From Deltaproteobacteria bacterium (GTDB lineage: Bacteria > Bdellovibrionota_F > JAHFAK01): a DNA stretch of 5,445 nucleotides. The notes beneath the pieces are model-generated. The model saw only the letters and a list, made by a program, of their open reading frames with translations. It was not told where the DNA came from and searched no databases. The stretch's first letter is position 1. Each line of letters begins with the position of its first letter. Below are positions 1 to 5,302 of this stretch, in pieces. The position numbers were made by a program, and so were the translations under genes. The stretch is taken from assembly GCA_023250585.1 (NCBI GenBank), contig JAHFAK010000130.1:1-5445 (forward strand), given 5' to 3'.

Positions 1-318
1 GAAAGTACCACAGAAAATATACCGCACAAGCGGAAAGGTGCCCGGCAACTTCCGGTCGAAAAATGACCGGAAGTTGCCGGGCACCTTTCCGCTTGTGTAA
101 GGGTGAAACAGTGAGGTAAGAGCTCACTCATGGCAGTCTTGAGAGAGACGATGCGGTAAACCCCATCTGGTGCAAGACTAAACAGGAAGAGTTTTTCACA
201 ATTGTTGAAAAGCAAGCGGTTACTCGCCGTATTTCCAGGTAAGTCGCAAAGATCTTCATAGCAATATGAAGACAAGATAAATGGCCATTCTAGACAAAAC
301 TCGGCTTATAGGTCTAGC
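1..318 (+). ncRNA. rnpB: RNase P RNA, 3' part (5' end outside window)
   Basis: This is the catalytic RNA of ribonuclease P, which removes 5' leaders from pre-tRNAs. Conserved blocks appear in the expected order: CACAGAAAATATACCGC (10-26), then the P12 hairpin, TAAGGGTGAAACAGTGAGG with GTAAGAGCTCAC (98-127), GATGCGGTAAACCCCATC (149-166) with GGTGCAAGACTAAACAGGA after it, AGATAAATGGCCATTCT (276-292), and the 3' signature AGACAAAACTCGGCTTATAGG (about 293-312). These match the order in E. coli M1 RNA as I remember it. The 5' half (P1 to about P10, including the GAGGAAAGTC block) lies outside the window. The exact 3' end is uncertain: the last bases (about 311-320) should be the 3' strand of helix P1, and they overlap the start of the inverted repeat at 315. 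The odd feature is P12, here a perfect 33-bp stem. No T-rich intrinsic terminator is seen after the RNA. Confidence 0.93.
25..97. repeat. Perfect 33-bp inverted repeat inside rnpB (helix P12 position)
   Basis: Arms 25-57 and 65-97 are exact reverse complements around a 7-base loop (58-64, GAAAAAT). The arms are GC-rich (21 of 33) against AT-rich surroundings. The position, between the ACCGC block and TAAGGGTGAAA, is where P12 sits in RNase P RNA; in E. coli that helix is much shorter. Each arm is itself a quasi-palindrome (GGAAAGGTGCC / GGCAACTTCC), so two smaller hairpins are possible instead. A perfect stem with no mismatch or G-U drift suggests a recently inserted palindromic element or a recent inverted duplication rather than an old helix. 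Being in an apical, variable helix, it is probably tolerated. The structure is seen directly; the insertion origin is inference. Confidence 0.9.
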
Positions 319-438
319 CCTAAAGCACATTCAAATGATAACGAGGCTTCGTCGGAATCTCCTCAGCGTACTACTTACGTACGCTTGCGTCGTTTTCTCC
401 TCGCCGCCTCGTTATCATTTGAATGTGCTTTAGGGCTA
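315..438. repeat. Palindromic element between rnpB and the aspartokinase-like gene
   Basis: Arms 315-347 and 406-438 are perfect reverse complements (33 bp) around a 58-base middle. The middle holds a 7-bp hairpin, AGCGTAC (365-371) and GTACGCT (379-385) with loop TACTTAC. It also holds a diverged direct repeat: 350-364 (CGTCGGAATCTCCTC) and 388-402 (CGTCGTTTTCTCCTC), 12 of 15 identical. The left end touches the 3' end of rnpB and the last three bases on the right (436-438) are the stop codon of the - strand gene. It could act as a transcription barrier between the convergent genes, but neither side carries the T-tract of an intrinsic terminator. No clear target-site duplication is visible. 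Best read as a non-coding mobile palindrome of a family shared with the repeat at 1389-1516. Confidence 0.88.
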
Positions 439-1825: not shown

Positions 1826-4800
1826 GTGCAAAATATGACATGTCCATATTGTTCCGCAACAATTTTAAGTATCAGTAATTTTTGTTCCGAATGTGGGAAA
1901 CAAGTTGCTTATCAAAAATACTGCTATCATTGCGGAATGCCTTATACAGTTGGAATAAATTTCTGTGGGCATTGTGGAACAAATCTTCACATAGTTATTC
2001 AAACGCTCAATGATATTGCACAAGGACCACAAATACCTGCTGTATTCCAAACCAATGATACATCTATTACAGCACAAAAAGAGCAAACAGCAGAAATACC
2101 TCAAGCTCAAAAGACTATACCAAAACCAATTACTCAAACATCTGAAGTCGCGATAAAAACACACGTCAACCTTCAACAAAAAGATATAACTCAAGCTGAA
2201 ACAGCTCCGGTAAAATCTGCCGACGATCCTTCTTCATCCAGTCAAATTGGTTTCAGTGATGAATTTGCAAAGTTTATGCCCAAACATATTGTTGATCAAA
2301 TTCTTCACAAAAGCTCGTTACAAGAAGAAATGAAAAACGTTGCTGTTATGTTCGCGGACGTCAGCGGTTTTACAGCGATGAGTGAAAATATGGATCCCGA
2401 AGAAGTTACAAACATTATGAACAAATGCTTTCAGCTTCTCGTCGATCTTGTTAATAAATATGAAGGCACGGTTAATAAATTCATCGGCGATTGCGTTATG
2501 ACTATCTTTGGAGCTCCCATTGCACATGAAAATGATAGTGAACGTGCTGTTCGATGCGCACTCGATATGATCAAATCAATTGAAGCTTTCAATAAAACAA
2601 CAAATATCAATGTTCCTATTGGAATTAGTATTGGAATTAATGCGGGAAAAGTTTTTGCGGGAATTGTTGGATCAGCGATGCGCAAGGAATATACGGTTAT
2701 GGGAGATACGGTTAATCTCGCACAGCGCCTTGAAAGCATTGCAACGAAGGGAAGAATTATCGTTGGTCAGAACGTATATAAAGCAACGAAAGATCTTTTT
2801 GAATATATTGACTTAGAACCTGTTGCTGTCAAAGGCAAGAAAGAAAAAGTACAATCGTACGAAGTTGTTTCTGAAAAAAAATCAGAGTCCGGAAAAGCGG
2901 TTGAATATGGATGGACGCTTGTTAATAGAACTCAAGAACTTCAAAAATTTGATCATATCCTTGAAAAATTCGAAAAGCCAATTGGGCAAATCTTATATGT
3001 TTCCGGAGAAGCTGGTATTGGGAAAAGCAGAATTATGAAAGAATTGACGGGGATTTTTGCCAAAAGATATCCGGATTCGTATGTGATTAAATGTCATGCG
3101 GCTTCTCATACGACGGAACTGACATATTATATTTTTCAAAATTTCATTCGAATACTATGCAATATCACCAATGACGATAGTGAAAACGTAATGAAAGAGA
3201 AAATTAAAACGCTACAAAAATATACTCTCGATATGAATGAAATTCACTTTATTGGTTTAATCCTGTATTTAAAATATGAAGACAGCAACGTACAATTCTT
3301 TGATGAAGCAAAAAAGAAATTATCTATCTTTTTAGCAATAAAAAAACTCATTGCTCATCTCACACAGGAAAAGCCTTTAGCCTTTGTGCTAGATAACTTG
3401 CAGTGGATAGACCTTCTAAGTAAAGAGCTTCTCGACTTTATTATCGAAGATATTCGTAATAATCATATTATTTTATTTTTGTGTTCTCGTTTCGATTACA
3501 GTAAAGTTATTGAAGAAGATGATTCAATTAATGTCCTAACATTAACTCCATTTAATAAAGAAGAAACGTATAACCTCATTGAAGAAATCTTAGGTGCAAA
3601 GGATCTTCCCGAAACATTGAAAGAAGCAGTATGGTCTCGTTCTATAGGTAATCCACTCTTTACCGAAGAAATTATTAAATCATTTGTTGATGATAAAAAA
3701 ATAGTTAAGAATGCCGAAGGAAAATGGCTAATCGATCAGAAGATTAATTTATCAGAAATTCCCCATACTATTCATGGAATCATTGCTTCTCGTGTTGATC
3801 GCCTCGATGAAAAAACAAAAATTCTTCTCCAACATCTTTCAGTTATTGGAAGAGAATTTCGCTATTCAATAGCAAAAGAAGTTATGAAAGACTTTCCAAG
3901 TCTCAATGATGAACTGATCAAACTGGCTCACAAACAAATGATTTTTGAAAAAGCAAAATCTCCAGATACGGTTTATATTTTTAAAAGCCTTCTTCTCGTT
4001 GAAGTAAGCTACGGCAGCATTCTTAAAAAGAAGCTCAAAGAATTTCATGAAAAAGTGGGTAATGCGATTGAGAAAATAAATGCAGATCGTCTTGAAGAAC
4101 ATTATGAACTCTTAGCTCATCATTTCAGCAAAACTGACTGCTATGAAAAGGCAATTAATTATTTAGAAAAATCAGCAGAGAAACTTGCCAGTGAATGTCA
4201 GTTGGAAGGTGCAAATAACTATTATCGAACCGCCATTGAATTTATAAAAAGAGCTCTCGAAAACAATGTCATTGATGTAAAAATTGGCAAAGAAAAACAA
4301 ATGAATAATCTCTACAGATCTATTGATATTGCGCTTAAACAGGGTGATTTGGATTACAGTGAAAAATCGTGTGGTGATCTGCTTACGCTTGCCGAAGCAA
4401 ATAAAGATAAGACTTTCTCTTCGAAAGCAAAAATTGGATTGGGCCGATTCCACTTCTTTAAAGGAAATTTCGATGATTCAATTAATTATCTCAAAGAGGC
4501 GTTACATATCACTCAAGAAGAAGGCTTGGATGAAATATCTTCAAAAACAATGGGTTTTCTGGGAGATATTTATGAACGAAAAGGTGAAAGCGATCTTTCG
4601 ATTGTAACGCTTGAAGAAGGAATTAAGATTGCTGAAAAAATTAATAATCAACGATTGCTTGGTGAACTCAATAAACGAATCGGGACATCATATCTTTTTA
4701 AAGGTACATACGATAAAGCCCTCGACTATTACAATAAAGCCATTGATTATGCAAAACAAGTCAATGATAAAACAACGATGTCGGGAATTTTAGGAAATAT

Positions 4801-5302
4801 TGGAATAGTCTATAGTTTTCAAAAAGATTTTAATCAATGTCTCGACTACTATAATAAAGCTCTTGAGCTGTGTCGTGAAATCGGAGATAAAATTGGTATT
4901 TCACGAAATCTGCATAATATTGGAGAAGTATATTATGAAAATCAAAAATATAAAGAAGCATTAAAAAACTTTCAGGAATCTTTGCCTGTATCAGAAGAAA
5001 CGGGCTGGAGAGAAGGCTACGCTAACAATTTAATCTATGTTGGTTTCCTTAAATTTTTACAAAATGAAAATGCCACAGAAGGAAAAGAAATGCTTCATAA
5101 AGGAATTGAGATATCAGAAAAATATAATTTCAACCGCGCAATTCCCATGGGTCGTTACTTATTAGGTAAAATAAATATTGAAGAAAAAAATATCGACGAA
5201 GCAAAACAAGAATTTGATAAGGCAATGAAAATTGCAAATAGTACAGGGTTTAAAAAACTCATCGATGATATAAATGTAGAACTGAAAAAATTAGCTGCTT
5301 AA
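1826..5302 (+). CDS. Zinc ribbon / class III nucleotidyl cyclase / STAND ATPase / TPR signalling protein
   Basis: An 1158-residue multidomain protein with no signal peptide or membrane segment, so probably cytoplasmic. In order: two zinc ribbons (C6, C9, C20, C23 and C33, C36, C47, C50); a Q/T/P-rich linker to about 140; a class III adenylyl/guanylyl cyclase domain (about 165-345); a STAND/AAA-type ATPase (about 365-640) with Walker A GEAGIGKS at 394-401 and a Walker B-like FVLDNLQWID ending at D529; a winged-helix-like part (about 645-700); a helical stretch; then TPR repeats (about 825-1158). The cyclase residues are complete: metal aspartates D178 and D222, base-selecting K218 and T290 (the K/T pair of many bacterial adenylyl cyclases), and N297 and R301. 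It should make cAMP as a dimer, gated by ATPase/TPR sensing; the signal is unknown. Walker B has N524 where a second acidic residue is usual. The gene stands alone behind its own TATAAT and GAGGAG sites. Confidence 0.93.
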   Translation: MQNMTCPYCSATILSISNFCSECGKQVAYQKYCYHCGMPYTVGINFCGHCGTNLHIVIQTLNDIAQGPQIPAVFQTNDTSITAQKEQTAEIPQAQKTIPKPITQTSEVAIKTHVNLQQKDITQAETAPVKSADDPSSSSQIGFSDEFAKFMPKHIVDQILHKSSLQEEMKNVAVMFADVSGFTAMSENMDPEEVTNIMNKCFQLLVDLVNKYEGTVNKFIGDCVMTIFGAPIAHENDSERAVRCALDMIKSIEAFNKTTNINVPIGISIGINAGKVFAGIVGSAMRKEYTVMGDTVNLAQRLESIATKGRIIVGQNVYKATKDLFEYIDLEPVAVKGKKEKVQSYEVVSEKKSESGKAVEYGWTLVNRTQELQKFDHILEKFEKPIGQILYVSGEAGIGKSRIMKELTGIFAKRYPDSYVIKCHAASHTTELTYYIFQNFIRILCNITNDDSENVMKEKIKTLQKYTLDMNEIHFIGLILYLKYEDSNVQFFDEAKKKLSIFLAIKKLIAHLTQEKPLAFVLDNLQWIDLLSKELLDFIIEDIRNNHIILFLCSRFDYSKVIEEDDSINVLTLTPFNKEETYNLIEEILGAKDLPETLKEAVWSRSIGNPLFTEEIIKSFVDDKKIVKNAEGKWLIDQKINLSEIPHTIHGIIASRVDRLDEKTKILLQHLSVIGREFRYSIAKEVMKDFPSLNDELIKLAHKQMIFEKAKSPDTVYIFKSLLLVEVSYGSILKKKLKEFHEKVGNAIEKINADRLEEHYELLAHHFSKTDCYEKAINYLEKSAEKLASECQLEGANNYYRTAIEFIKRALENNVIDVKIGKEKQMNNLYRSIDIALKQGDLDYSEKSCGDLLTLAEANKDKTFSSKAKIGLGRFHFFKGNFDDSINYLKEALHITQEEGLDEISSKTMGFLGDIYERKGESDLSIVTLEEGIKIAEKINNQRLLGELNKRIGTSYLFKGTYDKALDYYNKAIDYAKQVNDKTTMSGILGNIGIVYSFQKDFNQCLDYYNKALELCREIGDKIGISRNLHNIGEVYYENQKYKEALKNFQESLPVSEETGWREGYANNLIYVGFLKFLQNENATEGKEMLHKGIEISEKYNFNRAIPMGRYLLGKINIEEKNIDEAKQEFDKAMKIANSTGFKKLIDDINVELKKLAA
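4415..5300 (+). repeat. In-gene TPR array with exact 40-residue period
   Basis: Within the cyclase protein the TPR glycine (LG or IG in helix A) falls at residues 873, 913, 953, 993, 1033 and 1073, exactly 40 apart, and at 1114 after one extra residue. Typical lines are IGTSYLFKGTYDKALDYYN and IGIVYSFQKDFNQCLDYYN. The DNA also repeats: 4721-4740 and 4841-4860 agree at 18 of 20 bases, 120 bases apart. A 40-residue rather than 34-residue period marks the longer-helix TPR subtype used in many signalling scaffolds. The array probably binds a peptide or partner protein that controls the ATPase and cyclase. Confidence 0.85.

Follow-up and report, generated by a model that had tools for sequence, protein, structure and literature searches.

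Palindromic repeats and RNase P RNA

Palindromic elements of Rickettsia, the RPEs, are recorded in M1 RNA and tmRNA in PMC2229807, which cites Ogata 2002. For repeats of the CGTC type, RPE-4 and RPE-6 included, PMC3733652 reports no transposase that they flank. STRR repeats also occur within cyanobacterial rnpB, as the title of Vioque 1997 cited in PMC2858038 indicates, and the latter refers to the same work for the dispensability of helix P12 in cyanobacteria. P12 has no universally conserved nucleotides and is sometimes dispensable (PMC2858038).

In other systems one gene is paired with one repeat family, as described for RAYTs and REPINs (PMC3116915, PMC2817692) and for TIRtrons (PMC3733652). 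REPINs are extragenic inverted doublets that form hairpins and show compensatory changes in their arms, and inverted units also flank the RAYT gene (PMC3116915, PMC2817692). In TIRtron/TIRYT systems a RAYT-like gene lies between inverted repeats that have no relation to GTAG REPs, and the dispersed copies are moderately abundant, some being dimers (PMC3733652).

The window, a stretch of 5,445 nt that forms contig C63 of a deltaproteobacterial genome assembly, begins inside rnpB, the gene of the catalytic RNA by which every tRNA is trimmed, and carries a palindrome of this general kind in P12 (Table 1).

Table 1. Features of rnpB in the window (positions count from the first nucleotide of the window).
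Feature	Positions	Strand	Evidence
3' part of rnpB, class A RNase P RNA	1..324	+	cmscan RF00010, model 105-367, 158.4 bits
P12 helix as found: perfect 33-bp hairpin, 7-nt loop	25..97	+	inverted-repeat search, cmscan, folding
Inserted compact inverted doublet of a dispersed family, unit consensus GACCGAAACGTGCCCGGCAACTTTCGGTC	33..89	+	own-genome BLAST, alignment of compact copies
Loop GAAAAAT, equal to the linker after the first hairpin in full-length units	58..64	+	unit sequences
Presumed native base of P12, 5' side, CACAAGCG	25..32	+	outside the shared repeat core; native origin presumed
Presumed native base of P12, 3' side, CGCTTGTG	90..97	+	outside the shared repeat core; native origin presumed

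A 33-bp hairpin at the P12 position

The inverted-repeat search returns two arms of 33 nt (25-57 and 65-97), 100% complementary and 7 nt apart, with 21 G+C among the 33 nucleotides of an arm (direct count). RNA folding assigns the hairpin an energy of -75.3 kcal/mol (z -15.3), matched by none of 200 shuffles. In 20 windows randomised by a first-order Markov model, with loops of up to 20 nt allowed, the longest perfect arm measures 7-11 bp, against 33 bp in the real sequence. The palindrome occupies exactly the P12 insertion point of RF00010 (cmscan), between the flanks CCGCACAAGC and GCTTGTG. The repeat search and cmscan thus confirm the perfect palindrome and its P12 location proposed by the sequence-only reading. 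Matches of the hairpin to mir-873 and MIR834 were rejected, being below the gathering score and driven by the perfect hairpin alone.

Assignment to class A rests on scores of 158.4 bits for this part of the gene and 160.9 bits for the part found on a second contig, the gathering score of RF00010 being 100. The RF00010 search of the window's genome yielded no second rnpB.

The comparison of P12 covered 56 further rnpB genes, each from a different family. Its length has a median of 30 nt and a maximum of 104, and its longest uninterrupted Watson-Crick helix reaches at most 17 bp (median 6); in the window, P12 measures 82 nt and contains a helix of 33 bp. The sole relative of the same class in the comparison, G001 (locus L029), has a 34-nt P12 whose helix measures 7 bp, and its genome yielded no copies of the repeat family described below. 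The phylum is represented by two genomes, which do not include a close relative with an empty site. Scanning genome contigs for the exact arm pattern gave no matches, and a scan with the RAYT alignment gave 20 pattern matches, none of them confirmed, and no sister species.

A family of dispersed repeats

The P12 palindrome belongs to a repeat family with about 45 matches in its own genome when window positions 20-102 serve as BLAST query, and 46 when the consensus unit does. The conserved shared part corresponds to query positions 14-70, that is, to the core listed in Table 1, which is common to about two dozen other, unrelated sites, intergenic ones included. In a unit, GACCGAAACGTGCCCGGCAACTTTCGGTC is joined by a linker of about 7 nt to GACCAAAAGGTACA, and a variable tail follows. 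Some units stand alone, and others are paired into inverted doublets with a loop of 7-9, 43-44, 62 or 73-74 nt. Almost all of the copies are located between ORFs, frequently within a few bases of a stop codon, and none of the 20 other family loci examined holds a known RNA gene.

These dispersed copies support the proposal that an essential structured RNA gene harbours a copy of a palindromic element. The sequence-only reading had named two grounds against itself, an arm unique in the genome and P12 helices of the same length in relatives. Both fall away, since the arm is not unique and the P12 of G001 is short.

RAYT-like genes and their flanking repeats

The genome codes for four Y1 transposases, three of them RAYT-like (on contigs C32, C47 and C69) and one IS200-like (on C13). 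The C32 gene lies on the minus strand at 7088-7747 and its 3' end is directly adjoined by a unit of the rnpB family (C32:7028-7086). Upstream, at the contig end, is a truncated inverted unit of which a 16-nt tail, ACAAAAAGGTACAGGC, is present; the gene is thus flanked by one full unit and, on the other side, by this tail cut by the contig end. A rough estimate puts at about 1% the chance that a copy lies near any end of the four transposase genes.

The C32 protein matches PF01797 (Y1_Tnp) above the cut-off and NF047646 (REP_Tyr_transpos) with an E-value of 2.4e-19 and 69.6 bits, below the curated cut-off of 80. It has HMH as the HUH motif, the N-terminal Thr and the catalytic Tyr, but lacks the full NP(L/V)(R/K)xG motif, where it reads NPHRAR. 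Its paralogue on C47 is 45% identical, has the motif NPVRAG and scores 66.5 bits with NF047646. Inverted copies of a second family, AAAGGTGGGGACCGACATATGAA, lie on both sides of the C47 gene, at about 2076-2101 and 2913-2935 of locus L101 (C47:2300-6000); this family is itself dispersed in the genome.

Probable origin of the insert

Window positions 33-89 are likely to be a non-autonomous doublet of the REP/TIR type that landed in P12, its probable mover being the RAYT of C32. A compact inverted doublet would have been mobilised by this RAYT-like HUH tyrosine transposase and inserted in the P12 apical loop of the single rnpB detected. By folding on itself, it would merely prolong P12 into one 33-bp helix pointing away from the catalytic core, so that the ribozyme would survive; the insert is presumed neutral. 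The role of the C32 RAYT is putative, and is suggested by its adjacency to a unit.

The rnpB gene is divided between two contigs, its 5' part being at the end of C112 (3391-3674; model 1-236), and both C63 and C112 end within rnpB. The two contigs overlap by about 186 bp with 93% identity (window 1-186 versus L037:3488-3674). In the C112 palindrome one C:G pair is changed to A:T, mirrored on the other arm, the loop is inverted and there is a 2-nt bulge; the term flawless used in the sequence-only reading is therefore right for C63 and wrong for the C112 version. Three further differences lie outside the palindrome, some at conserved rnpB nucleotides, and the P4 strands still match (CCGAG on C112 opposite CTCGG on C63, read from alignments). 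An inverted loop is to be expected when palindromic arms are collapsed during assembly. The differences between the contigs can be explained by a mixture of strains as well as by an assembly error. That a contig break or the popping of a de Bruijn bubble created or polished the palindrome itself, as collapsed arms could flip the loop or force perfect symmetry, is nonetheless very unlikely: the element is found at the same point of P12 on two contigs independently, with native flanks on either side. Growth of P12 by its own fold-back duplication through template switching, with no element landing in rnpB, would explain the perfect symmetry. Mirrored arms exist in other palindromes of the genome, such as the 44-bp arms on C159, and in the palindrome at window 315-438 the left arm mirrors the right, unlike in other copies of that repeat. 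Fold-back may thus explain the perfection of the doublet but not the presence of its sequence in rnpB. A purely fold-back origin is highly improbable, and is largely refuted by the recurrence of the core at unrelated, including intergenic, sites. The presence of four Y1 transposases leaves some room for a family that is mobile but moved by the IS200-like enzyme of C13, the RAYT-like one of C69 or the C47 paralogue. This is unlikely, as the loci around these three genes yielded no copies of the rnpB family, C47 has its own flanking family and the rnpB family flanks the C32 gene only.

A reading compatible with the mobile element gives the insert a function or a processing fate. RNase III would cut the 33-bp duplex and leave RNase P RNA in two pieces, as for the intervening sequences of 23S rRNA. 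Perfect duplexes of such length are RNase III substrates, the RNase III gene rnc is present in the genome and the compensated changes between C63 and C112 preserve pairing. Compact intergenic copies are equally mirrored, so that covariation is no proof of RNA-level selection, and the 33-bp arms were rejected as such proof on the same ground. Processing is a possibility, though a doubtful one. The insert is best described as a non-autonomous element of the REPIN/TIR type that is tolerated where a dispensable helix has its tip.

Compact doublets and the age of the copy

Four doublets have loops of 7-9 nt: those of rnpB on C63 and on C112, and those at C32:5743 and C159:21157. Of 29 positions in each arm of the C63 copy, 5 depart from the family consensus, and every one of these changes is mirrored. 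Changes from the consensus are common to both arms in 5 of 5 cases on C63 and in 3 of 3 on C159; in most long-loop doublets the two arms vary independently. The compact form may have arisen by deletion between two CGA(N)5CGACC linkers or by fold-back copying of one arm.

The mirrored departures from the consensus, together with the differing C63 and C112 versions, indicate that the perfection of the arms reflects concerted changes rather than youth. The suggestion that the insertion is recent, drawn earlier from this perfection, is consequently not supported.

A separate observation is a perfect 25-bp compact doublet of the C47 family, which lies inside a truncated copy of the rnpB family (C47:2721-2786).

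Comparison with described repeat families

The analogy with Rickettsia put forward by the sequence-only reading is apt and even literal, given the record of RPEs in M1 RNA and tmRNA in PMC2229807. In both cases a dispersed palindromic element is present in the RNase P RNA gene and is presumed neutral. The lineage is unrelated and the sequence presumably so, the units found here have no CGTC tag, which RPE-4 and RPE-6 carry, and a RAYT gene stands beside the family. When the unit sequences were read by eye, neither GTAG nor CGTC stood consistently next to the hairpin.

Like REPINs, the family consists of repetitive palindromic units, mainly extragenic, whose inverted doublets form one hairpin, and arm changes are compensatory. 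The genome also resembles REPIN/RAYT systems in that its several RAYTs are each paired with a separate repeat family, the inverted flank of the C32 gene being only the 16-nt tail. It differs by the missing GTAG tag, tens rather than hundreds of copies, a divergent RAYT and one copy within a ribozyme gene. The TIRtron layout, with moderately abundant dispersed copies and some dimers, is complete for the C47 gene and its family, and for C32 is seen only with the tail cut by the contig end. The sequences are unrelated to those of TIRtrons: GGGGWSAS is absent from the rnpB family and nearly matched (GGGGACCG) by the C47 family. The STRRs share with the insert their location within rnpB, as far as the title of Vioque 1997 tells, and differ in being short tandem repeats rather than a palindromic transposon derivative.

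The phenomenon itself was thus already known. What is new is a RAYT-linked family at a defined position of P12, and the parallel in a second genome described below.

Other repeats and genes of the window

A second dispersed palindrome, with 14 matches, occupies window positions 315-438, in the interval that separates the rnpB 3' end from the stop codon of a convergent amino-acid kinase gene. The outer arms of its family vary among copies and are complementary within most copies. A third repeat, at 1312-1576, has the terminal inverted repeat CTCAGAAGGTGTGAAA; a further copy, close to the IS200-like gene of C13 (L103:717-965), has its inner part inverted relative to its ends. Positions 1826-5302 code for a protein of 1158 amino acids with double zinc ribbon, adenylate/guanylate cyclase, AAA ATPase and TPR domains.

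P12 as a possible recurrent landing site and the state of RNase P

G039, which shares only the domain with the organism studied here, has a P12 of 83 nt, the inner part of which is repeated at eight further sites of its genome. The repeat reads CCCCCC-TTCTTGCTTTCGCAAGAAAGCAGGGGGG, and the rnpB that carries it scores 227 bits. The G039 loci concerned are L145, L149 and L154, and two of the eight sites are within 23S rRNA matches (L154 and L149). A general origin of long P12 helices from repeats was rejected on the case of G049, whose 75-nt P12 has just one weak partial match elsewhere in the genome. P12 would therefore have received dispersed hairpins at least twice, although not every long P12 is a repeat. 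A dispersed hairpin in the P12 of the unrelated G039 suggests that this helix is a recurrent landing site.

RnpA is encoded in the genome and the protein-only RNase P, HARP, was not found, so that the RNA enzyme is presumably in use; an rnpB made dispensable by HARP was rejected on the same negative search. A more far-reaching proposal, in which P12 would be a recurrent safe landing site across unrelated bacteria and RNase P RNA would be split by RNase III in this organism, is tentative and rather unlikely to hold in full. A split RNase P RNA is a concrete prediction.

The locus offers a clean natural case in which a mobile element may live in an essential ribozyme because it folds on itself. 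Together with G039, it suggests that long P12 helices, usually taken as ordinary length variation, are transposon remnants in some lineages.
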